From: Streptomyces sp. SDr-06
GTDB lineage: Bacteria > Actinomycetota > Actinomycetes > Streptomycetales > Streptomycetaceae
Assembly: GCF_003324565.1 (NCBI RefSeq)
Contig: NZ_QOLA01000006.1
Location: forward strand, 186,001 to 250,000
DNA: 64,000 nucleotides
Reading direction: 5' to 3'
Part shown: one piece after another, positions 4,654 through 35,263 of the stretch
Position numbering within the stretch: the first letter of the stretch is position 1
How the letters are laid out: every line of letters starts with the position of its first letter
Notes under the pieces: generated by a model
The model's input: only the letters and a program-made list of their open reading frames with translations
Database searches by the model: none
What the model was told of the DNA's origin: nothing
Translations under genes and position numbers: made by a program

Positions 4654-5037
4654 TTGACACCGGTTCAGCCTCGCCAACGCCCCGCGCACGCCCTCCGCTT
4701 GGCTGCGACCAGGACCGGGGCCCGGCATCGGTGCCGACCGCAGGTCTGGGACGGCATGGCCGGTGCTCGTGTCGGGTTCCCGCGGGTGTGCGATCGGGAC
4801 GAGCAGGTCGCGGGCCCCAGCACCCAGGCCCGGCTCGTCGCCGTCCGCGACAGCTCTGTCTCCGCGGACCGTCTGCGGTTGCGGGACGTCCTCGGCGGCG
4901 AGGAATCGTACGCCGTACCCATCACCACCTCTGGGCCCGGCGCCGCACGTGCGACGAGCCTGCCGCAGCCCGGCGCCCCCTCCGCGGTGGCAGGCACGCG
5001 CGGGCCCGGCCCGGGCGCTCTCGCGCTGTCCCGGTGA
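4654..5037 (+). CDS. Small hypothetical protein in the csp-helicase module
   Basis: A 127-residue open frame starting at TTG 4654, preceded by GGGAGGCATCC. The next gene has a similar leader (GAGGCATC), which favours real translation of both. The protein is Arg/Ala/Gly-rich with no transmembrane segment and no family I recognise. The middle part (about residues 30-80) has a balanced composition, while the C-terminus is low-complexity. Codon bias is only moderately GC3-rich, so the gene could be degenerating or spurious. Confidence 0.4.
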   Translation: MTPVQPRQRPAHALRLAATRTGARHRCRPQVWDGMAGARVGFPRVCDRDEQVAGPSTQARLVAVRDSSVSADRLRLRDVLGGEESYAVPITTSGPGAARATSLPQPGAPSAVAGTRGPGPGALALSR

Positions 5038-5102
5038 TCGACCAGGGCCCCGCCCGAACTCCCTCCCCGTTCCCAGTGACCTTTCTTCCCCTGTGAGGCA
5101 TC

Positions 5103-5423
5103 ATGCGCTGCGTCATCGCCCGGTTCCCGTTCGACCTCACCAAGAGCGGGGTGCTGACCTCGATGAAGGGCGTGAAGCCGGAGGCCGTCACGGGTGCGTC
5201 CGTGCTGATCGGCCGCCGCCACTACCCCGTCAAGCAAGTGGGCGAGGTCATCACCCGTCAGGATCGCCGCGACTTCACCGCCGCCGAGGTGACCCGGGCC
5301 ATGACGCGGCTCGGCTTCACCTGCCGAAGCGGTCAGGAGGCCGTGGCCGCCCCCTCGTACGGCCTGACGCCACTCGAGGCGGCCTCGGCCCTGCTGGGCA
5401 GTCCCAGCTCGCTCGGGATGTGA
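5103..5423 (+). CDS. Conserved-looking small protein next to csp-helicase genes
   Basis: A 106-residue basic cytoplasmic protein starting at ATG 5103 after a GAGG-type ribosome binding site. It begins MRCVIARFPFDLTKSGV and has a compact predicted alpha/beta composition without signal peptide or membrane segment. I recognise the type as an actinobacterial hypothetical protein found downstream of cold-shock and DEAD-box genes, but no biochemical role is known to me. Same-strand order after the helicase suggests a shared role in RNA metabolism or the cold response. It ends before a very strong terminator. Confidence 0.75.
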   Translation: MRCVIARFPFDLTKSGVLTSMKGVKPEAVTGASVLIGRRHYPVKQVGEVITRQDRRDFTAAEVTRAMTRLGFTCRSGQEAVAAPSYGLTPLEAASALLGSPSSLGM

Positions 5424-5451
5424 CGAAGACCGCCGGAGGCTGAACCGCCGG

Positions 5452-5503
5452 ACAACGATGAGGGGCCCTGCCGACGCGCGTCGGCAGGGCCCCTCATCGT
5501 TGT
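5452..5503. terminator. Bidirectional terminator with 25-bp perfect stem
   Basis: Left arm 5452-5476 and right arm 5479-5503 are perfect reverse complements around a CG centre, one of the longest perfect palindromes in the window. It sits between convergent genes (5103-5423 rightward, 5574-5948 leftward) and can serve both. Confidence 0.9.
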
Positions 5504-5573
5504 CGTCGTCCAATCGTTCCGGCCGACCGGCCGCGTCCCTCAAGTCGGGGCCCCCGCCGGTCCTCAGGGGGTC

Positions 5574-5948
5574 TCAGCTGTCGGAATACCGGAAGTCGCC
5601 CACCGTCCAGGCGCTGACGTCCTTGATGGCCACGCGGTACATCCCGCCGGTCTCGGGGATGCCGATGTTGCCCTGGAGGATCCGGGCGAGATGGAAGTGG
5701 AGATGGGTGGGCGCCTCGCCACACCCGGCCCGGTCCCGGGGCCCGTCCTCGATGAAGACCTCCGAGAAGGAGTCGAGGTCGTCCGAGTCCTTGAGTACCT
5801 CCGAGACCCGCTCCCTCCACACGGCTTCGGGAGCCAGTCGGCCGGTGATGACAGCACCACCGACAACAACGGTCAGCGACATCCGATTGCTCTGCGCGGA
5901 CTCCACCATGGCGGAGATACCGACGAGCAGCTCGTCAGGGTTCGACAT
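5574..5948 (-). CDS. Possible GvpU-like gas vesicle accessory protein
   Basis: A 124-residue cytoplasmic protein, start ATG 5948 (MSNPDELLVGI). The central part, VVVGGAVITGRL, followed by a THLHFHLARI segment, resembles Streptomyces proteins annotated as GvpU, an accessory protein whose role in gas vesicles is not well defined. No gvpA/J/L or other gas vesicle gene is nearby, so if the family is right this is an orphan copy. The call rests on remembered resemblance and should be treated as tentative. The gene is solitary and shares the 25-bp terminator with the upstream module. Confidence 0.5.
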   Translation of the reverse strand: MSNPDELLVGISAMVESAQSNRMSLTVVVGGAVITGRLAPEAVWRERVSEVLKDSDDLDSFSEVFIEDGPRDRAGCGEAPTHLHFHLARILQGNIGIPETGGMYRVAIKDVSAWTVGDFRYSDS

Positions 5949-6374
5949 GGGAGCCGATTCTATCCAGCGGCCGCTCCCGCTTCCCACCCCAGAGGTGGCC
6001 CCAGGACGACCGGACCCTCCCCCGTCACAAAATCTATGTTTGCCAGAGTAGACATTGACTTGACACGTGGCTAGGGTTTCTTCGTCGAGACAGTCAGAGA
6101 CGCCCGGCAGACATGAACTGGCGGGAGAGCACGACCAGTCCCCGTGGGCCGGCTTCACAGACAGACCGGTTCATCCAAGGACGGAGGGAGCAGACGCCAT
6201 CAGGATCGCCCGGCCGTAGAGGGTTCGGACCGGGTACGGCAAGGCCCCCGGAATGGAAGGTGGTCCCCGGTCACGCACTTTCGATCCCCCGACCCCCTGC
6301 CCCTTTCCGGGCCGGGCGGCGGAAACAGAAGGTCGGCGCGGCGATAGCGTCGGCAGATGGTGTTCAATTCCCTC
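5949..6374. other. Intergenic region between GvpU-like and MerR genes
   Basis: About 430 bases with no supported gene. A local A/T-richer patch at 6030-6065 lies about 100 bases upstream of the leftward gene and is the likeliest promoter area for it. Reading frames here look like chance in GC-rich DNA. Confidence 0.4.
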
Positions 6375-6406
6375 GGGGCCCTGGTGCCGTACGGCATCAG
6401 GGCCCC
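6375..6406 (+). promoter_or_regulatory. Hairpin just upstream of the MerR gene
   Basis: GGGGCCCTGGTGCCGT pairs with ACGGCATCAGGGCCCC with one G-U pair, forming a 32-base palindrome that ends 28 bases before the MerR ATG. It could be the terminator of an unseen upstream transcript or an attenuator in the merR leader. Confidence 0.55.
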
Positions 6407-6434
6407 TCGACGCGTTGCAGAACAACGAGGTGAC

Positions 6435-6779
6435 ATGACAGCAGATAATCCATTGAGCGGTCGTCTGGATGACGACGACTACCCGGCCTACACGATGGGC
6501 CGAGCCGCCGAGATGCTCGGAACCACTCCGGGGTTCCTTCGAGCCATCGGCGAGGCGCGGCTCATCACACCGCTCCGGTCCGAGGGCGGACACCGGCGCT
6601 ACTCCCGCTACCAGCTCCGGATCGCCGCGCGCGCCCGCGAACTGGTGGACCGGGGGACCCCGGTCGAAGCCGCCTGCCGGATCGTCATCCTCGAGGACCA
6701 ACTCGAGGAAGCGCAGCGCCTCAATGCCGAGTACCGCCGCAAGGCGAAGCAGACGTCGGAGGGTCCCGGTTCCGCCTGA
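6435..6779 (+). CDS. MerR-family helix-turn-helix regulator
   Basis: A 114-residue DNA-binding protein starting at ATG 6435 (MTADNPLSG), after a GAGG site. The MerR-like wing-helix region is YTMGRAAEMLGTTPGFLRAI, then LRSEGGHRRYSRYQLRIAARA (about residues 18-62). A short dimerisation helix follows (VILEDQLEEAQRLNAEYRR). There is no effector-binding domain, so it resembles HspR-type short MerR proteins. Its targets are unknown. It has no operon partner, and a hairpin in the leader may control it. Confidence 0.88.
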   Translation: MTADNPLSGRLDDDDYPAYTMGRAAEMLGTTPGFLRAIGEARLITPLRSEGGHRRYSRYQLRIAARARELVDRGTPVEAACRIVILEDQLEEAQRLNAEYRRKAKQTSEGPGSA

Positions 6780-26513: not shown

Positions 26514-27761
26514 TCAAAGCCCCTGTCCGGGCCGGGAGCTGACCCGAAGACGCCTCGCGGAGCGGAAGCCCCGGCCGACGGGGCCGTCCGTGTCGAGGGT
26601 CCATCGGAACGGCGCGAGGGACGCCAGCTCGGACAACAGCTCGTGCGCTTCCACGGCGGCGAGATGACGACCGAGGCACAGGTGGGGGCCCGTTCCCAGA
26701 GCCAGGCTCGGCAGATACTCCCGCCGGGCATCGAACCGGTCGGCATGGCTCCACCTCGCCTCGTCCCGGTTCGCCGAGGCGAGGTTGACGCAGACGAGGT
26801 CGCCCCGCCCCATCGACTGTCCGGCGACTTCGGTATCGGTGGTGCAGCGGCGCAGCGCCCAGGTCAGGGGGCACTCCCAACGCCAGCACTCGTGGAAGAC
26901 CGCGGGGGCGATGGAGGGGTCCGCGCGAAGGGACTCCAGCACGGTCCGGTCGCTCAGGACCGCGTACATCAAGGTGGCGAGGGAGCGGAACGGCGGCTCC
27001 GTGCCCGTGGACAGCAACAACCGTACTGCGGGCAGTAGTTGAGGGCCCGACCCGATGGCCGGGCTGTCCGCACGCGAGAGCAGGTCCACGAGACTGCCGG
27101 GCGGCCACGCCGACGGCATGGCGAGCAACTCCCCCATGGCGTCGGCCATCCGATGGCCGGGGTCCTCGGTCAACCCGACCGCCCAGGCGTACAGCGTGCC
27201 GATCCGGGTCCCGGGTGGCAGGCCGATCAAGCGCGCGATCGTCGTCAGGGCCACCGGAAAGGCCACGTCCGCGACGAGGTCACCGCCCGGCCGCGCCAGC
27301 GTGTCGGCGAGCCTCGCGGCCAGGGACGAGCGAATCTGGGCGCGGTGCGCGAGCACCGTCTGCCGGTTCATACCGGCATGGAGAACGTTTCTCCAGCTCC
27401 GGTGCTCCTCGTGGTCCATCTGCAGAAATGACCTGCCCACGACCCGGCCCATGCTGTCGTCGTAGGCCGATGAGGAAAAGGTGTCCTCGTCCCGCAGAAC
27501 ACGTTCGGCCGCGGCGAACGACACCACGTGCCACACGGGTGTGGAAGCGGTGTCCGTCAGGTCCGCGCCGGTCAGCACCCGCTCCCACGTCGAACCGTGG
27601 ACGGGCCGCCGTCGGCGCAGCGCCGCGAACTCGGCATGCGGATCGGCGTCCTTGGACCAGGCCCCGTCGCTGTCGAAAGCCCGGACCAGCGCGTACGCCT
27701 CACCGATGTCCCGCTCGACGTCGGCGGGGCTCGCATCGAGGAGGGAGACCGCGAGGGTCAT
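26514..27761 (-). CDS. Cytochrome P450, tailoring enzyme of the RiPP cluster
   Basis: A 415-residue heme monooxygenase from ATG 27761. The heme-binding loop is ALGTGPHLCLGRH (Cys362), and the ExxR motif is ECWR (291-294). The I-helix shows LSTGTEPPF where AGxxT is usual, so proton delivery may be atypical. Such deviations occur in P450s that catalyse coupling instead of simple hydroxylation. ATGA overlap with the GNAT gene shows it is the last gene of the peptide operon. It may oxidise or cross-link residues of the precursor peptide. No ferredoxin gene is nearby. Confidence 0.9.
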   Translation of the reverse strand: MTLAVSLLDASPADVERDIGEAYALVRAFDSDGAWSKDADPHAEFAALRRRRPVHGSTWERVLTGADLTDTASTPVWHVVSFAAAERVLRDEDTFSSSAYDDSMGRVVGRSFLQMDHEEHRSWRNVLHAGMNRQTVLAHRAQIRSSLAARLADTLARPGGDLVADVAFPVALTTIARLIGLPPGTRIGTLYAWAVGLTEDPGHRMADAMGELLAMPSAWPPGSLVDLLSRADSPAIGSGPQLLPAVRLLLSTGTEPPFRSLATLMYAVLSDRTVLESLRADPSIAPAVFHECWRWECPLTWALRRCTTDTEVAGQSMGRGDLVCVNLASANRDEARWSHADRFDARREYLPSLALGTGPHLCLGRHLAAVEAHELLSELASLAPFRWTLDTDGPVGRGFRSARRLRVSSRPGQGL

Positions 27762-28345
27762 GACGGCCTCCGGTCGGGGTGCGCGGCGCCGGGGAGTGTC
27801 TTGTCCGCTTCTCGGACGGCGGTGCACACGTCGCTCTCGGTGGAGTGGCGACGCCGGTTGCCCACCGTGGGGCCGGGTTCCGGAGGCGGTGGCTGCACCT
27901 CGAAGTCCAGCCTTTCCAGGAACGCCAGGCCGGGCGCCCAGTTCCGCGGACAGGTGGCGGTCACGCGTCGCAGCCCCCGGTCCGTCGCGTCCCGCAGCAG
28001 TCGCCGGGCTGCCAGCATGCCGATGCCCTTGCGGCGGGCTCGCGGGATGACGACGAAGAGCCCCACCGCACAGCTGCCCGCCTCGGGACAGTCCGCCACG
28101 GCGTCGACCACCCCCACCACCTCGCTCCCGTCGCACAGCACCAGCAGGTGCTTCTGGTCGAAGTCGGCGCCGTCCGGCAGGGAGTAGTACAGGCTCTGCA
28201 CGTCGGCGGGCAGCGCGGGGGAACCGGTGGCCGCGAGGAAGTAGTCGTCGCAGGCCGCCAGCACGCGGCTCACGGCCGCTTCGTCCTCCGGCAGCATGGG
28301 CCGCACCGTGAACGGTTCCTCGTCGGTGCCCTTGAGCGGTTCCAT
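27758..28345 (-). CDS. GNAT-family N-acetyltransferase of the RiPP cluster
   Basis: A 195-residue acetyltransferase from ATG 28345. The acetyl-CoA site has the form RRKGIGMLAARRLL (about residues 104-117) after a beta strand (VGLFVVIPRA), the classic GNAT motif A. The stop of the upstream B12-radical SAM gene lies four bases before it, and its own stop overlaps the P450 start. In RiPP clusters such enzymes cap an N-terminus or a lysine, and the precursor has Lys44 and Lys46 near Tyr37. The target is inferred. Confidence 0.88.
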   Translation of the reverse strand: MEPLKGTDEEPFTVRPMLPEDEAAVSRVLAACDDYFLAATGSPALPADVQSLYYSLPDGADFDQKHLLVLCDGSEVVGVVDAVADCPEAGSCAVGLFVVIPRARRKGIGMLAARRLLRDATDRGLRRVTATCPRNWAPGLAFLERLDFEVQPPPPEPGPTVGNRRRHSTESDVCTAVREADKTLPGAAHPDRRPS

Positions 28346-28349
28346 GTGG

Positions 28350-30731
28350 CTACGCCTCCTGCCCCTGGGCGAGATACCTCGGCTGGTTCTGGCGGGCACC
28401 GGCAGGTTCGCGGTACAGGAAGCCGTGACGAACCAGAGCGTCGGTGACCGCGTCCGCCTCCCCTGTCGCGGGGGTCTCCCCGTTCTGCCAGCGCTGCCAC
28501 GTCGCGACGGCCTCGCCCCGGAGCCGGATCGTCACCCCCGTGATGGGGTTGGAGAGGTAGGGGGTCGCGCGACGGGTCTCCATGGCGATGCCGATCTCGG
28601 GGCGCAGGCGGGCATCGGGCGACCGCACCTGCCGCCGCGAGGGCACCAGGAGACCGTGCCTGAGCAACAGCGCCGCCGTGTCGGCGGGGCCGCACCCCAG
28701 GTAGTGGCAGTTCTGGTACGTCAGCCAGGCCTCCAGGTCGCGCCAGGCAAGGCCGTCCAACTGCCGCCAGTCCAGGTCGCCAACCCAGTTGAGCTGGAGG
28801 AACCTGTCATGGGCCGGGTTGTACAGCGCCATGGCCGGTTCGGTGTCCGCTTCCGTGGCGGGCCAGGGCACGCGGGTGAAGGTCACGCCGGGGGCGAGGG
28901 TGAGCCGGGCGTCGGGATCCGGTGGCGGCCAGTCGAACAGCGGGACGGGGAGCGGCTCGGGCGGCGCGGCTCGCACACTGGCCCGCAGGAACGTGAATTC
29001 CTCGATCTCCCTCGCCATCGGGTCACGTACCGCGCGGAACCACACGCCGGTGTCGTCGGCGGAACCCGACGCGTCCTCGGCGACCCGCAGACTGTCCTGC
29101 TGCGACATGCCGGACACGGTGCGGTAGTCGCGGCTCAGACTCAGGTCCTCGGCAGGATCCGGCGGGTCGATCCGGATGCCGAACGCTTCTGGTTGCGTGC
29201 CGATCGGCGCGTGCACGTCCAGGACGAAGGGCGAACCGCCCCACGTCGTGTGGGCGACGCCGTAGTGATGCACGGACAGCCGCCGGACGGCCTCGGCGAA
29301 CGCGACCGTGCGTTCGGCCTCCTCCCGGGTCTCCCCCGGAAAGCCGTGGATCACGAACAGGTGGATCGGCACCCCGGCCTTCAGCATCGAGGTGATGTTC
29401 TCGCAGGCGTCCTCGATCCGCGTTCCCTTGCGCATCAGGTCGAGGACCCGCTGACTCGCCGATTCCAGGCCGAAATTCATCCGGCGACAGCCGGAGCGGT
29501 GCAGGAGGCCCGCGAGTTCGTCGTCCAGTCCTCCGGCGAACCGGGTCTCGCCGTACCAGTACACGTCGGCGGACGTCGACACCAACGCCTCGCTGACGTT
29601 GCGCAGGGTCCGCGGGCTCATGATCTCGTCGACGAACATGAAGTACCTGGAGCCGTGCTGGGCCCGCAGGGCGCGTACCTCTTCGGCCACCGCCTCGCCG
29701 GGACGCTGGCGGAAGGAGTTGCTCGCGAACGGGATCGAGCAGAAGGCGCAGTCCCAGGGGCAGCTGCGCGAGGCGAAGACCGGCAGGATCGGGCCCGGGG
29801 CGAGGTACTTGTCCAGGGGCAGGGCGTCGTAGGCGGGCTTGACCGCCGCCGAGATGTCGGCGCTCTGCCGGGGTGTGCGCAGCAGGATGCCGTTGTCGGC
29901 CCAGACCGCGCCCGGGATCTTCTCGCGGAAGTCCGCCGTGGCCGTCCCTCCCTCCGTGAGGCCGTCGACGACGGCGGCGAGGGCTCCCTCACCCTCTCCG
30001 GTCACCACCGTGTCGACGTAGTCGAACAGGGCGTGCCGGTGCTGCCAGCGGTCCACCAGACGGGTCGCGTAGTTGCCGCCGAGCACCACATGGACGTCCG
30101 GGCGCATGTCCTTCACCATGCTGAGGAACGTCACCGCGGCGATCAGCTGGGTGTCGGCGGACATGCTCACCGCGACGACCCCGACGGTCGGGTCGAGGAG
30201 GAGGTCCCGGTCGAGCATGCGGTCGAAGGCCCAGCGGTAGGGATTGCCTTCGGCGTCCCCGCTGGCCGCGAGCACCTGGAGCGTCGACTCGGCCGAGTAG
30301 GCGCACGTATTCGACACCAGGTCGAAATCGCAGGAGGGGAACGCGCCCGAGACGAGCCACAGCGCGTCGCGCAGGGTCCGTCGGGCGGCGTGGAAGGCGG
30401 CGGGGTCGTGCAGCGTCGCCAACGACTTCAGGCGGGCCTTGGCCTCCTCGATGTCGCGGATCGCCGCGGGGGCGACCAACTGGGCCCGTCGGCGCGCCCA
30501 TTCGTCCCGCAGGCCGACAGAACGGCGCGCGGCCGCCTTTCGCCGCAGCTGCTCCAGCGCGGGCGCCGAGAGCATCCAGTCGACGCATTCGATGCTCAGG
30601 TCGTAGGCGGTGGCCTCGTACCCGTGCGCTCGGAGGTCGCCCAGCAGCAGGGGGACGGCCAAGTGCGGGGCATAGGCGTTCCACAGGGGCGGATTCACCA
30701 GAACGGTCTTCATGCCCTTCTTGCTCCGCAT
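28350..30731 (-). CDS. B12-binding radical SAM enzyme of the RiPP cluster
   Basis: A 793-residue enzyme. The radical SAM cluster is CPWDCAFC (Cys324, Cys328, Cys331), placed after a cobalamin-binding-type region (about residues 7-250: VLVNPPLWNAYAPHLAVPLLLGDL and VVLGGNYATR). The C-terminal 250 residues, beyond the usual radical SAM barrel, include PqqD-like wing features (LLRHGLLVPS, LVRHGFLYRE) and may bind the leader peptide. B12-radical SAM proteins often methylate unactivated carbons or cyclise substrates. ATG 30731 follows GGAGGG at short spacing, and ATG 30713 is an alternative. The gene sits just after the precursor and a hairpin. Confidence 0.92.
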   Translation of the reverse strand: MRSKKGMKTVLVNPPLWNAYAPHLAVPLLLGDLRAHGYEATAYDLSIECVDWMLSAPALEQLRRKAAARRSVGLRDEWARRRAQLVAPAAIRDIEEAKARLKSLATLHDPAAFHAARRTLRDALWLVSGAFPSCDFDLVSNTCAYSAESTLQVLAASGDAEGNPYRWAFDRMLDRDLLLDPTVGVVAVSMSADTQLIAAVTFLSMVKDMRPDVHVVLGGNYATRLVDRWQHRHALFDYVDTVVTGEGEGALAAVVDGLTEGGTATADFREKIPGAVWADNGILLRTPRQSADISAAVKPAYDALPLDKYLAPGPILPVFASRSCPWDCAFCSIPFASNSFRQRPGEAVAEEVRALRAQHGSRYFMFVDEIMSPRTLRNVSEALVSTSADVYWYGETRFAGGLDDELAGLLHRSGCRRMNFGLESASQRVLDLMRKGTRIEDACENITSMLKAGVPIHLFVIHGFPGETREEAERTVAFAEAVRRLSVHHYGVAHTTWGGSPFVLDVHAPIGTQPEAFGIRIDPPDPAEDLSLSRDYRTVSGMSQQDSLRVAEDASGSADDTGVWFRAVRDPMAREIEEFTFLRASVRAAPPEPLPVPLFDWPPPDPDARLTLAPGVTFTRVPWPATEADTEPAMALYNPAHDRFLQLNWVGDLDWRQLDGLAWRDLEAWLTYQNCHYLGCGPADTAALLLRHGLLVPSRRQVRSPDARLRPEIGIAMETRRATPYLSNPITGVTIRLRGEAVATWQRWQNGETPATGEADAVTDALVRHGFLYREPAGARQNQPRYLAQGQEA

Positions 30732-30754
30732 CAGCCCTCCTCGTGGCCTGGTGT

Positions 30755-30788
30755 GACCGGCGCCCGGACGGCCGCCCGGGCGCCGGTC
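30755..30788 (-). terminator. Hairpin between precursor peptide and B12-radical SAM gene
   Basis: GACCGGCGCCCGG (30755-30767) pairs perfectly with CCGGGCGCCGGTC (30776-30788), a 13-bp stem with an 8-base loop. It starts 25 bases after the precursor stop on the leftward transcript. It probably acts as a partial terminator or stabiliser so that the precursor is made in excess. Confidence 0.75.
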
Positions 30789-30812
30789 GAGGTGGCACGG
30801 ATCCCGCCCGTG

Positions 30813-31004
30813 TCACTCTTGTTCATCCGATTCCGTCTCCTGCGTCGCGCCGGACACGTCCGGCCGCTTGGCCTTCATCGACGGCAGCAGGGCGTACTGC
30901 GAGCCGGTGCGTACTTCCGGCTGCACCACCTCGACCGCGGGGCCTTCACCGGTCGCGCCGGCCGCCGCCATGAGGTGTTCCAAATCCGCCTTCTTCTTCG
31001 TCAT
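30813..31004 (-). CDS. Probable RiPP precursor peptide, 63 residues
   Basis: Starts at ATG 31004 with a strong GGGAGGTG ribosome binding site. The peptide begins MTKKKADLEHLMAAAG, a short basic then helical leader, followed by an acidic stretch and QYALLPSMKAKRPD (residues 36-49), then the acidic tail ETESDEQE. The only aromatic residue is Tyr37 and there is no Cys or Trp. Position between a PqqD-like protein and a B12-radical SAM enzyme, plus the downstream hairpin, fits a RiPP substrate. The core boundary is not known. The residues after about 33 are my best guess, with the charged end as follower. Confidence 0.72.
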   Translation of the reverse strand: MTKKKADLEHLMAAAGATGEGPAVEVVQPEVRTGSQYALLPSMKAKRPDVSGATQETESDEQE

Positions 31005-31039
31005 CACTTCACCTCCCTTCCTGAGGAGCGCCGGGTCGG

Positions 31040-31375
31040 CTACACGATGGCGACCAGCTCCCCTTCGAGGAGCATGGCCATCGCCGACTCGAACGCCTCC
31101 TGAAGTTCCGGTTCGCCGATCCGGCCTTTGTTGAGCTCCTGGAACGAGGCGTAGATCTGCGGACCGGAGGATCCGTCGCACAGCTCGATCACCACCCATG
31201 CCACCGGGTTCAGGTAGTGGATGGCCGGCTTGTGCGGGGTGTAGGCAAGCATGCAGTTCCACTCCGGGATGGGACGGAACCTGGCGGAGCCGTTCTGCTC
31301 AAAGCAGTCGGCTCGTAGCCGGAACGGCCGGGTGGACACGCCGGTCGTCGAGGTCGCCGGGGAGCTGAGAGACAT
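31040..31375 (-). CDS. PqqD-like peptide recognition protein (RRE)
   Basis: A 111-residue wing-helix protein from ATG 31375 (ACGGAGGGATCG upstream). It overlaps the 3-prime end of the SPASM gene by 77 bases in another frame. Family features: PIPEWNCMLAYTPHKPAIHYLNPVAWVVIELCDG, then a helical end with LQEAFESAMAMLLEGELV. PqqD-like proteins bind the leader of a RiPP precursor and present it to radical SAM enzymes. It is placed between the SPASM enzyme and the precursor gene, as expected for a recognition element. Confidence 0.85.
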   Translation of the reverse strand: MSLSSPATSTTGVSTRPFRLRADCFEQNGSARFRPIPEWNCMLAYTPHKPAIHYLNPVAWVVIELCDGSSGPQIYASFQELNKGRIGEPELQEAFESAMAMLLEGELVAIV

Positions 31376-32339
31376 CGATCCCTCCGTTGGTCGTGGTGCA
31401 GAACGGGTCGGGGGCGTCCCAGCGACCGGTGAAGGCGAAGGCCGTGGACCTGCATCCGCCGGACGACCCCTGGGTCTGTTCGCAGGACTCGCAGCCGCCG
31501 TCCACGTGGGCGCCCCGGTTGTGGACGTAGACGGGGTTGTTCCAGGTGTCCAGCCAGCTGACCTCGCGGACGTTGCCGTAGTCGGCGTAGTCCCGCAGGT
31601 AGGCGCAGCCGACGGAGCGGCCGGTGGCGTCCACGCCGGCGTTCTGCCAGCAGCAGTTGCCGTCCTTGGGGTGCCAGGAGGTCATGAGGTGGACCGAGTC
31701 GGGCACGCGCAGCGCTTCCAGCGCGGCCATCTGGTCGGGCAGCCGCAGCGCCAGGTCCTTCCACTGGGTACGGGCCCGGCCCAGCGGGTACAGGCGCAGC
31801 ACCCCCACCCGGGTGACGCCGAGGTCGGCCGCCAGGTCGAACACGTCCTGGAGTTCGTGCACGTTGCGCCGCGTCATGATGATCAACAGGGATACGGAGA
31901 GCCCGGCGGTCTGTGCGTTCCTCACCCCCTGGACCGTCTTGTCGAAGGACCCCGGCACCCGCACGTGCCAGTCGTGGGTGGCCGCGGTCGCGCCCAGAAC
32001 GTCCACGTACAGCTCGCCGACCCCGATCTCCTTCAGCCGCGCGGCCACCTCCGGGGTCAGCAGCGTCGCGTTGGTGCGCAGCCGCGTCATCACATGAGGC
32101 GTCAACTCCCCGAGCAGGTCGAGGATGTCCGGCCGGTTGAGGGGTTCGCCTCCTTCGACGAAGGCCTCGATCACGCCGGAGTCGGCCATTTCGCGGATGA
32201 GCGCCGCGTACTCCTCCCGGCGCATCTCCTCGCCGCGGGGCCGGGCCTCGCAGTCTCCGTAGCACTGGCGGCATTTCAGGTTGCACGACTGCGTGACCTG
32301 CAACCAGCTCTTGAGGGGCTCATTGAGTACGAGATCCAT
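31299..32339 (-). CDS. SPASM-domain radical SAM peptide-modifying enzyme
   Basis: A 346-residue enzyme from ATG 32339 (GACGGAGACCC upstream). The cluster motif CNLKCRQC (Cys19, Cys23, Cys26) is unusually near the N-terminus, so there is no N-terminal accessory domain. A glycine-rich SAM-contact strand (FVEGGEPLNRPD) follows. The C-terminal auxiliary-cluster region has many cysteines (NCCWQNAG, VGCAYL, CESCEQTQG, GGCRS), the SPASM pattern. Such enzymes install thioether, C-C or C-O cross-links on precursor peptides. The precursor has no Cys or Trp, so cross-linking at Tyr37 or aliphatic carbons is most likely. Confidence 0.93.
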   Translation of the reverse strand: MDLVLNEPLKSWLQVTQSCNLKCRQCYGDCEARPRGEEMRREEYAALIREMADSGVIEAFVEGGEPLNRPDILDLLGELTPHVMTRLRTNATLLTPEVAARLKEIGVGELYVDVLGATAATHDWHVRVPGSFDKTVQGVRNAQTAGLSVSLLIIMTRRNVHELQDVFDLAADLGVTRVGVLRLYPLGRARTQWKDLALRLPDQMAALEALRVPDSVHLMTSWHPKDGNCCWQNAGVDATGRSVGCAYLRDYADYGNVREVSWLDTWNNPVYVHNRGAHVDGGCESCEQTQGSSGGCRSTAFAFTGRWDAPDPFCTTTNGGIDVSQLPGDLDDRRVHPAVPATSRLL

Positions 32340-32512
32340 GGGTCTCCGTCCTGGTCGGCACCGACGGGCACCGGCACTGAGAAATGACGGCTCGACGCGA
32401 CGGCGTCAGGGCCTGCGGGACAACGGGCACCTGAGTGCCGGGGGCGGATACAGGGCCGGGGAGTGGGCTGTGCGGGACGCCGCGCGTCCGCGGTGGTGCA
32501 CGGCAGGAGAGG
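32340..32512. other. Spacer between SPASM and HExxH genes
   Basis: About 170 bases, GC-rich, without a supported gene. Short frames on the minus strand (for example a 36-codon GTG frame) are not convincing. Confidence 0.35.
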
Positions 32513-32611
32513 TCAGGGCAGGTGCGGGGTGGTGGCGAGGGGTCTCGCGCCCAGGGAGATCAGGAGGTGTGCCCGGCGCGGGCCGGGACCGGTCGCCTTT
32601 CCACCTGTCAT
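32513..32611 (-). CDS. Possible 32-residue peptide coupled to the HExxH gene
   Basis: An ATG at 32611 overlaps the HExxH stop codon as ATGA and opens a 32-codon frame ending at 32513. The peptide starts MTGGKATGPGPRRAHLLISL. It has no aromatic residue and no Cys. Close coupling makes it a candidate for a second small peptide or leader, but the composition is also what GC-rich chance would give. Confidence 0.3.
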   Translation of the reverse strand: MTGGKATGPGPRRAHLLISLGARPLATTPHLP

Positions 32612-33663
32612 GACGGCACCCGTTCCCGGGGGCGGGGTCCGACCTTGCCCTCGTGGACCTGCGTCAGCCAGCGCAGGAAGTCCTGGCCCGCCGGGCCGAG
32701 GCAGCCCTGAGCGTGCCGGGCGACCTTGTCGAGCAGACTGGCGGCCCGCAGGACGGCGGTCTCGGCGGACTGCTCCGCGTCCGGCCCGCCGCCGTCGACG
32801 GCCCGCTGCTCGAACCATGCGGCCAGGTGGACGTAGACGTGCGCCGCCGCCAGGGCCCGGTCGACGGGCCATCGCGAGACCTTCGAGTCTCTGTGCCACT
32901 CCGGCGCCACCGTGGGTGCGGATTCGGTGTCGTAGGCCGGAGCGAAGATCGACCTCGTCGTCTGCAGGTCGTAGAGGCGCAGATGCACGAACTCGTGGAC
33001 GAGCGCCTCGGCCAGCCGCTCGGGGGTGCGCATGCAGCGGAGGGCCACGAACGCCGTTCCGGGAATCTCCTGGGTGGAGGCGCTGTCGAAGGCGTCGGGG
33101 CCGTCGACGGCGACGATGTAGCGGGCGTGCCGCACCAAGCCGCTGCACAGCTCGGGGGCCGTGGTGAGCATCAGCTCGACCGCGGCGCGCACCATCGCGG
33201 ATTCCTCGACCGTGCAGCCGGCCAGATGGTCGGCGTTCTCTCCCGCGCTGAGGTGGCGACGGAAGAGCGCCTCGAATTGCCGGTGGGAGGCGGCGGGCAG
33301 GGCGGGGTCGCTCAGCAGGTTCAGCCGGTGGCCGGACACCTTGATCCCCTGGTGGATTCCCGCGCGCTCCTCGGTGGCTGCCAGCGTGGCACCGGCGTGG
33401 AGCGGGTCTGCCCTTGCGGCCAACTGCCGTCGGCACGCGGGAGTATCGCGAATGCTGCGCAGCGCCTGATCCCACGCGTGCCGACTCACAGGATCCAGCG
33501 CTATGTCGGGGGTGACCCGGCGCCCTTTCGAATCCGCCGACCATAAATCGGGTGCGACGCATTCGAGAAGGAAATCATAGGTTTCGTATACTCGGTCGAT
33601 GATGCTTGCCGGTTGGGCGAACACGGGGTGCTCGGCCAGCGCAACAAGCGCAGGCTTCTGCAT
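32608..33663 (-). CDS. HExxH-motif enzyme of the RiPP cluster
   Basis: A 351-residue protein from ATG 33663. Its active-site motif is HEFVH (223-227) in the context EALVHEFVHLRLYD. It resembles the HEXXH motif domain found with radical SAM enzymes in FxsB-type and other RiPP loci, recently annotated as an alpha-ketoglutarate-dependent peptide beta-hydroxylase. A metalloprotease is the alternative reading of HExxH. No signal peptide. If it is a hydroxylase it would modify the same precursor, and if a protease it might remove the leader, which no other gene in the cluster obviously does. Confidence 0.8.
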   Translation of the reverse strand: MQKPALVALAEHPVFAQPASIIDRVYETYDFLLECVAPDLWSADSKGRRVTPDIALDPVSRHAWDQALRSIRDTPACRRQLAARADPLHAGATLAATEERAGIHQGIKVSGHRLNLLSDPALPAASHRQFEALFRRHLSAGENADHLAGCTVEESAMVRAAVELMLTTAPELCSGLVRHARYIVAVDGPDAFDSASTQEIPGTAFVALRCMRTPERLAEALVHEFVHLRLYDLQTTRSIFAPAYDTESAPTVAPEWHRDSKVSRWPVDRALAAAHVYVHLAAWFEQRAVDGGGPDAEQSAETAVLRAASLLDKVARHAQGCLGPAGQDFLRWLTQVHEGKVGPRPRERVPS

Positions 33664-34003
33664 ACAGTGGCCCCTGTCGAATTACTCCCTTACTCGTCAC
33701 AGATCTCGGCGAGTGCGATGGGCAGTGGTACCAACAGGCCGGTGGAACATGCTTGTTGGCGACAAATCAGCGACTGACGCTTACCGAAGATTCCACCGCG
33801 GGAAAGCCGTGTCAACCGTCCCGAGCAATCGAGACGGGGCTTGTTCGGCGGGGGTAAAAGGGCGGCATAGAAATCCAGGACGACAGGAATGGTCCGCCGC
33901 GCACTGGGTACGCGCTGCTGGTCGATTGTGTCCACTCACCGAATGTGCCGCAGCGGCTTCTTGAGCGCGCCGCGACCGCCCGCCGCAGAGAGAACCCTGC
34001 CCC
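33664..34003. other. Divergent promoter region of the RiPP cluster
   Basis: About 340 bases between the leftward RiPP operon and the exporter gene. The part near 33670-33800 is A/T-richer than usual here. CCAACA (33731-33736) and TGTTGG (33754-33759) form a short inverted repeat that could be an operator. No regulator gene is present in the cluster. A leftward frame at 33690-33935 has no supporting feature. Confidence 0.45.
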
Positions 34004-35263
34004 ATGAGGTTCGCCATTCCCTCAGCCCGTCTGCCGGGCGGGCCGACAACGACGGCCCTGCGTCGGCTCGTTGCCGCAAATGCGCTCAGCTCGGTGGGCG
34101 ACGGCGCGCGGTTCGCGGCACTCCCGCTCCTCGCGATGTGGAGCACCGGTCAGGTCTTCTGGGTGTCCGTGGTCGCGGCCGCGAGCCGGGCGGCCTGGCT
34201 GCTCGCACCGGTCATCGGCACCCTGGTGGACCGCATCCCCCGACGCCGGTCCATGGTGGGCGGGGACCTCGCGCGCTGCGTCACGCTGCTCGTGCTGTTC
34301 GCGGTGGTGCCGATCGTGCGGCCGCCGGTGGTGCTGCTGGTGCTGCTGGCCTTCGGCACGGGTGTCGCCGAGGTCTTCTTCGACAGTGCCGCGCAGGCCG
34401 TGGTGCCGGCGCTGGCCGCCGACCACGAACTGGAGCGGACGAACGCCCGGATCCTGGCCGCCCAGATCACCGGCACCGGGTTCATCGGACCGCCCTTGGG
34501 CGCCGTGCTGTGGGCGGTGTGGCACCCATTGCCCTTCCTCGCCGACGGTCTGACGTTCCTCGCGTCGGCGCTGCTCCTCACCACCCTGCCGGAGCGGCCC
34601 GCGCCCGGCGGAACAGAGGACCACGAACGCGGGCTGCGGGGTCTTGTGCGCGGCACCTGGGCAGGGCTGCGGTTTCTGGGCCAGGACCGGACGCTGCGCC
34701 GCCTCATGGTGGTGGTCGCCGTCCTCGGCGTTGGGCAACAGGCGGTCTACGCGGTTCTCGTCGTCTATGTGGAACAAAGGCTCGGCCTGCCGCCCTACGG
34801 CTACAGCCTGATGCTGGTCGCGGCGGCGGCCGGCAGCCTCGCCGGAGCGAGAACGGCGCCCGGGACCGTACGGCGGCTGGGTTCCGCGTGGAGCTTGCGG
34901 GCCTCGGTCGCCGTGTCGGCGCTCAGCTATCTCGTCGTCGCGGTGCTGCCACGATGGCCGCTCGTCGCCCTCATGCTGGCCCTCAACAGCGCGGGGGTGG
35001 TGCTGTGGAACGTATGCACCGTGTCGCTGCGGCAACGCCTGGCTCCCGAGTACATGCTGGGGCGGGTCACCAGTGGCTACCGGCTCGCCGCGTGGGGCGC
35101 GATGCCGGTCGGCGCCGCGGCGGGCGGCGCCCTGGCCCAGCACACCGGCCTCGACGCCCCCTGGACGCTCGCCGGTCTCCTTCTCCTGGCCTGCCTCCCG
35201 CTGCTTCCGGGAGCGGCCTCGGTTCGTCCGGGCCAGGACGACCCCGTTCCTCCGGCCCGCTAG
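34004..35263 (+). CDS. MFS transporter, probable exporter of the RiPP
   Basis: A 419-residue protein with about 12 hydrophobic segments. The loop 2-3 motif GTLVDRIPRRR is the usual MFS motif A relative. Divergent placement from the modification operon across a shared promoter region suggests it exports or gives immunity to the product. MFS carriers move small molecules or short peptides, so the mature compound is probably small. No ABC transporter with protease domain exists in the cluster. It overlaps the convergent gene end by four bases. Confidence 0.85.
   Translation: MRFAIPSARLPGGPTTTALRRLVAANALSSVGDGARFAALPLLAMWSTGQVFWVSVVAAASRAAWLLAPVIGTLVDRIPRRRSMVGGDLARCVTLLVLFAVVPIVRPPVVLLVLLAFGTGVAEVFFDSAAQAVVPALAADHELERTNARILAAQITGTGFIGPPLGAVLWAVWHPLPFLADGLTFLASALLLTTLPERPAPGGTEDHERGLRGLVRGTWAGLRFLGQDRTLRRLMVVVAVLGVGQQAVYAVLVVYVEQRLGLPPYGYSLMLVAAAAGSLAGARTAPGTVRRLGSAWSLRASVAVSALSYLVVAVLPRWPLVALMLALNSAGVVLWNVCTVSLRQRLAPEYMLGRVTSGYRLAAWGAMPVGAAAGGALAQHTGLDAPWTLAGLLLLACLPLLPGAASVRPGQDDPVPPAR

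Follow-up and report, generated by a model that had tools for sequence, protein, structure and literature searches.

The minus-strand ATG frame at 30813-31004 of the window, i.e. the complete stretch of 64,000 nucleotides analysed from Streptomyces sp. SDr-06, is a real gene and not a chance ORF. It encodes a 63-residue peptide, MTKKKADLEHLMAAAGATGEGPAVEVVQPEVRTGSQYALLPSMKAKRPDVSGATQETESDEQE, and is very probably the precursor gene of an uncharacterised RiPP cluster. Taken as a whole, the data are probably best explained by a RiPP precursor that is docked by an RRE and rebuilt by the enzymes of the cluster. Such a family would bring four oxidative or radical enzymes, which is an unusual set, to bear on one very short core. 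A search of open-access papers did not find the sequence strings of the core and of the docking motif; within that scope, novelty of the family relative to the literature is not proven.

Precursor gene and surrounding cluster

The precursor gene was recognised by its ORF call and its conservation in relatives. Its ribosome-binding site GGAGGTGA (31009-31016, minus strand) ends four bases before the ATG and is located upstream of all eight actinobacterial precursors with a gap of 4-7 nt. The coordinates and this site confirm what a sequence-only reading had claimed, namely a 63-residue frame with a strong ribosome-binding site between a PqqD-like and a B12-radical SAM (B12-rSAM) gene. As expected for a RiPP precursor, it is a short conserved ORF within a maturation operon, and the same reading's assignment is supported by the conserved frame and by the adjoining PqqD-like protein with its predicted RRE fold. 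The peptide contains a single Tyr (Tyr37) and no Cys, Trp or Phe. Tyr37 had been described as the only aromatic residue, which is correct; the sole other ring residue is His9, which three of the four close relatives replace by Gln.

Three segments can be distinguished on the minus strand. Residues 22-33 (PAVEVVQPEVRT, 30906-30941) are common to the alphaproteobacterial substrates described below and are the proposed RRE-docking strand. Residues 34-47 (GSQYALLPSMKAKR, 30864-30905) are the proposed core. Residues 48-63 with the stop codon (30813-30863) form a length-variable acidic tail, with six Asp or Glu and no Lys or Arg in the last 16 residues, that may be a follower or a discarded end. The precursor gene is single-copy in its own genome, where the next match of the family profile has an E-value of 0.27, and searches of the peptide against Pfam and NCBIfam gave no matches.

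The cluster spans 26514-35263 with the minus-strand order HExxH enzyme, rSAM/SPASM enzyme, RRE, precursor, B12-rSAM, GNAT and P450, and a divergent MFS gene. The aKG-HExxH-type peptide beta-hydroxylase P0005 (32608-33663, minus strand, 351 aa) scored 57.5 bits against TIGR04267 (cut-off 40; homologues 50.2, 47.6 and 44.0 bits) and weakly matched ChlH (8s5f). The radical SAM/SPASM maturase P0004 (31299-32339, minus strand, 346 aa) matched PF04055 and PF13186 above cut-off. It is followed by the RRE P0002 (31040-31375, minus strand, 111 aa) and, beyond the precursor, by the B12-binding radical SAM enzyme P0003 (28350-30731, minus strand, 793 aa), the GNAT acetyltransferase P0006 (27758-28345, minus strand, PF00583) and the cytochrome P450 P0007 (26514-27761, minus strand, PF00067). 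The MFS transporter P0008 (34004-35263, plus strand, PF07690) is the presumed exporter. No protease gene was identified among the cluster genes. Among the NCBIfam matches listed, P0003 and P0004 stayed below every named cut-off, P0004 far under all equivalog cut-offs. The best match of P0003 was TIGR03975 with 113 bits against a cut-off of 281.85, which does not place it among the B12-rSAM RiPP C-methyltransferases.

A 77-nt stretch (31299-31375) is common to the rSAM and RRE genes. As the same gene pair overlaps in several distant loci (e.g. by 26 nt in L010), translational coupling is suggested. The C-terminal extension of the B12-rSAM (28350-28920) consists of two small strand-and-helix units. 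Its order of strands and helices suggests a fused RRE; it is only a suggestion, since the AlphaFold model of the enzyme was poor (pLDDT 60) and profile comparison of the two domains with the RRE gave probabilities of 36% and 1%.

Conservation among Actinobacteria

The whole gene set is present with its order kept in four other Streptomyces, and their precursors are 77-89% identical with intact frame and unchanged position. Variable sites in codons 1-47 of the five Streptomyces copies were distributed 5/2/22 over codon positions 1/2/3. In these five close copies, pN/pS was 0.00-0.15 for residues 22-47 (about 0.08 overall), indicating strong purifying selection, and 0.57-2.94 for residues 48-63, which is near neutral. 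Q36, Y37, A38, L39, P41, S42, M43 and A45 do not vary among six Streptomyces-type copies, and relatives can have an entirely different sequence in the first 21 residues. The alignment thus bears out the forecast of a conserved core around residues 34-47 and a variable tail, but the strongest conservation reaches further upstream, to residue 22. The acidic tail had been taken for a follower that is removed later; it exists and evolves nearly neutrally, and its removal would be consistent with this. Every homologous locus with readable sequence keeps the frame.

The cluster is rare. It was found in four of 393 Streptomyces genomes and, among 396 genomes drawn from the phylum and 394 from the class, in its own genome only; no relatives were found in viral contigs and phages. 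A 40% match in genome G015 (L004) was discarded as a chance hit, being weak and outside such a cluster.

Diverged loci with a readable precursor occur in three further actinobacteria. In L017, from another Streptomyces (G312), the precursor MEREELLGRLKSKLRETSFDAPAVETVQPEIRSAAQYALMPSMRAGFRIDDEADDTAN lies at the equivalent place and is 45% identical, with identities of 59% for the rSAM, 45% for the B12-rSAM and 38% for the HExxH enzyme. L054 and L055 come from two genomes of the family sample of L008. L054 has the precursor MRNRIDIEKLKAIAAEDNERPEVSTLDPQVRTSKYALFPEPKDMSALEDES with B12-rSAM and GNAT genes, and HExxH and P450 genes were looked for there and not found; a P450 gene was not found in L017 either. 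L055 has the precursor MREQEDRLSGLKDQLKKRGLESSVVHRVEPSLRTGSQVAFNPSLVDEIVKPGKEETPG and an HExxH gene, and a B12-rSAM gene was not found in it. L008 itself, a Pseudonocardiales MAG, contains the HExxH, rSAM and RRE genes on a contig that ends before the precursor position. In the rSAM tree, the window, the other Streptomyces, L008 and L017 group with good support, and L054 and L055 are long, unplaced branches. All actinobacterial loci that were readable throughout contain an MFS transporter gene (L005, L006, L007, L017, L018, L054 and L055 besides the window).

Two neighbours in these loci deserve mention. A tetrapyrrole-methylase-family enzyme (PF00590) directly adjoins the rSAM in L055 (8664-9452, minus strand). 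Since enzymes of this family install backbone N-methyl groups in borosins, the L055 precursor might, by analogy, be N-methylated. Upstream of the HExxH gene in L008, a 2OG-Fe(II) oxygenase and a spermine-synthase-like gene were observed (4904-6545).

The RRE and a leader motif shared across phyla

P0002 had no match in Pfam or NCBIfam searches, although an alphaproteobacterial homologue matches PF05402 with an E-value of 3e-4, just under the gathering score. Searching PDB sequences with the RRE profile returned kinase noise only, so a fold search was required. The AF2 model, built with an alignment of 18 sequences, had a pLDDT of 86.7, and its best match in the Foldseek/VIA search was TbiB1 with bound leader (Z 10.6, 85 residues, 2.2 Å). 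Further structural matches were other lasso RREs, the PbtF-leader RRE, the N-terminus of TigE and PqqD (5sxy, Z 8.0). Given these matches of the predicted structure, P0002 is a true RRE and the name PqqD-like is right.

The rSAM and RRE pair also occurs in Elioraea, in Roseomonas and on a Microvirga plasmid, and 12 of the 200 genomes from the family of Elioraea contain it. In nearly all of these loci, the RRE gene is followed by a gene for a protein of 170-230 aa with a precursor-like N-terminus, in which a helix (LLRRGG-like) precedes the pattern PxVxxIxPEIRSAG. Examples are MAENELEDIKALLRRGGLRGAPEVVEIRPEIRSAGAWHLIDP (L042) and the internal parts PASVTPLVSVVRSGEQFLILPPP (L027) and PTAATIVPEVRTHAAYPIKAP (L020). 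L009 is an exception with a 54-aa peptide, MNKLASIAELAKKLDIIEPPVVQEVDRHVRSGEMFPPGEWHTRTVAAEKHEDKR, upstream of the rSAM.

While a first profile relied on alphaproteobacterial sequences picked by an R-[ST] triplet, a second one was free of that choice. It was made from 13 alphaproteobacterial proteins selected by their position after the RRE gene, aligned automatically, and contained no Streptomyces sequence. This profile found the window precursor with 22.5 bits (E 5.4e-6) as the best among 1,334 ORF segments of the window, followed by an ORF with 8.8 bits (E 0.1), and the L017 precursor with 27.6 bits (E 1.4e-7). By this profile evidence, the leader is homologous across phyla. Residues 22-33, PxVxxVxPE[VI]R[ST], are likely a cross-phylum docking motif for the RRE; this stretch, rather than residues 1-30 as a whole, is the likely docking strand judging from the alignments. 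The shared leader motif and the predicted RRE fold are both present, and the motif may be the recognition sequence. It also offers a simple way to detect further members and to try a single rSAM/RRE pair on peptides as well as on larger proteins.

The alphaproteobacterial pairs and their 170-230-aa proteins look like a separate protein-modification system. The pair precedes the leader-bearing protein in L042 (5998-7934), L027 (6789-8675), L010 (5890-9833) and L020 (6463-11912), and the C-terminal domain of these four proteins is without a Pfam match. Next to the pair, L010 encodes an S8 protease; a large adenylate/guanylate-cyclase-type protein is located nearby in L010, L020 and L027. We tentatively consider it possible that one rSAM/SPASM and RRE pair recognises one tag, a helix with PxVxxVxPE[VI]R[ST], on substrates of two sizes, i.e. 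actinobacterial precursors of 50-63 aa and alphaproteobacterial proteins of 170-230 aa, and that the modification beside R-[ST] needs neither an aromatic residue nor Cys. It would then be a portable, undescribed modification of proteins and peptides.

Candidate chemistry and known systems

According to the favoured reading, residues of about 22-33 (PxVxxVxPEVRT) would bind to the discrete RRE as a beta strand, and the RRE would thereby offer the segment behind them to the rSAM/SPASM enzyme, whose site of action may be R32-T33 or the residues right after it. The YALLP segment would then be methylated or otherwise altered by the B12-rSAM. The HExxH enzyme might hydroxylate a core residue, with Gln36 as the best guess, or cut the backbone oxidatively, and P450 and GNAT would tailor the product. 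The acidic tail, outside the recognised sequence, would be removed or dispensable, and the MFS protein would export the product.

Because the core lacks Cys and Trp, any product must carry other chemistry. Both residues are absent from all eight actinobacterial precursors, which rules out thioethers to Cys and Lys-Trp links, as the sequence-only reading had argued; Tyr cyclophanes, methylation, hydroxylation and backbone cleavage are compatible with such a precursor. Its two Lys candidates did not hold up, as position 44 is Lys or Arg among relatives and Lys46 is not conserved. Tyr37, a further proposed target, has to be judged separately for each radical enzyme. Its place is taken by Y, F, W, I, L or V across substrates, so dependence of the shared rSAM/SPASM enzyme on Tyr is unlikely from the alignments. 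YALxP instead tracks the B12-rSAM, occurring in seven of seven precursors beside this gene and being absent from all 15 loci in which no such gene was detected. This co-occurrence suggests that the B12-rSAM, rather than the SPASM enzyme, uses YALxP. The link is statistically weak with few independent lineages, since the B12-rSAM-bearing loci may share one ancestor, and the spacing from VRT to Tyr in L054, shorter by one residue, counts against it. RiPP-cluster B12-rSAMs are mostly named methyltransferases in the NCBIfam matches, but one such enzyme joins aromatic rings by a biaryl bond (PMC12707348). HExxH enzymes hydroxylate Asp, His or Gln runs and can cut the backbone (PMC12636437). Gln36 is therefore a hydroxylation candidate, a weak one, as its equivalent is kept in alphaproteobacterial substrates without a detected HExxH gene (L027, L040 and L041).

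That VR[ST] (residues 31-33) is itself modified by the rSAM/SPASM enzyme beyond its role in docking, leaving the YALxP core to the B12-rSAM and the oxygenases, is doubtful. The hydrophobic-R-[ST] triplet alone is retained by nearly all substrates across phyla, and the residues following it vary (15 alphaproteobacterial and eight actinobacterial sequences). However, binding alone is usually the reason why RRE-bound leaders are conserved, the PxVxxV strand runs straight on into the triplet, and the first alphaproteobacterial set, though not the position-based one, was picked by it. A Tyr-centred cyclophane made by the rSAM/SPASM enzyme, such as a triceptide-like Y37-A38-L39 ring, or a Tyr-Lys/Arg link, is unlikely. 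SPASM-type maturases often use aromatic residues, and the three positions are invariant in the six Streptomyces-type copies and in L054. Against this, YALxP follows the B12-rSAM gene, and relatives of the enzyme in L010, L046 and L055 accompany substrates that carry I, L or V in place of Tyr37. The aromatic-X-X pattern is matched in form only.

The leader's occurrence on folded-looking proteins of 170-230 aa makes the motif a docking tag and not proof of a small product. It would also fit a peptide serving as a small structural or regulatory enzyme partner, like a free-leader scaffold, with no secreted product. This is very improbable, as conservation of residues 34-45 equals that of the docking strand, the peptide gene lies amid five genes for maturation enzymes and the MFS transporter recurs as described above.

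Compared with known systems, the cluster resembles PqqE/PqqD and MftC/MftB in that a SPASM-type maturase is encoded next to a short precursor and an RRE with the PqqD fold. P0004 has PqqE and MftC among its nearest named families; it scored 102 bits against a cut-off of 381 for PqqE and 121 against 265 for MftC. The PQQ precursor carries a Glu/Tyr pair and the mycofactocin precursor ends in a C-terminal Val-Tyr; the window precursor has neither. Sactipeptides and ranthipeptides require Cys donors, of which the eight precursors have none, and Lys-Trp peptides (streptide, WgkB type) differ by their Trp and by a score of 110.8 bits against the WgkB cut-off of 650. TvgB-type SPASM enzymes act on plain aliphatic residues in substrates without Cys or Trp (PMC9062424). 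The window precursor is likewise free of both, but has no repeats comparable to the TVGG substrate. P0005 shares the TIGR04267 domain with the HExxH hydroxylases ChlBH, BpmH and PflC, yet is a stand-alone gene with no known cyclophane scaffold, and the core has Gln36 only instead of Asp, His or Gln runs. With 83.3 bits for P0003 against 750 for ApyD, and 27.2 against 525 for ApyO, the cluster falls outside the Apy class. Biphenomycin/aminopyruvatide-type clusters also differ in their multinuclear iron oxidase, which was not found among the window cluster genes examined, and in that the window precursor has one Tyr and no Phe or Trp. Still, these clusters use a B12-rSAM with an HExxH enzyme or P450 on one small precursor (PMC12707348, PMC12257519), and the combination of a B12-rSAM with an HExxH hydroxylase or P450 is common to the window cluster.
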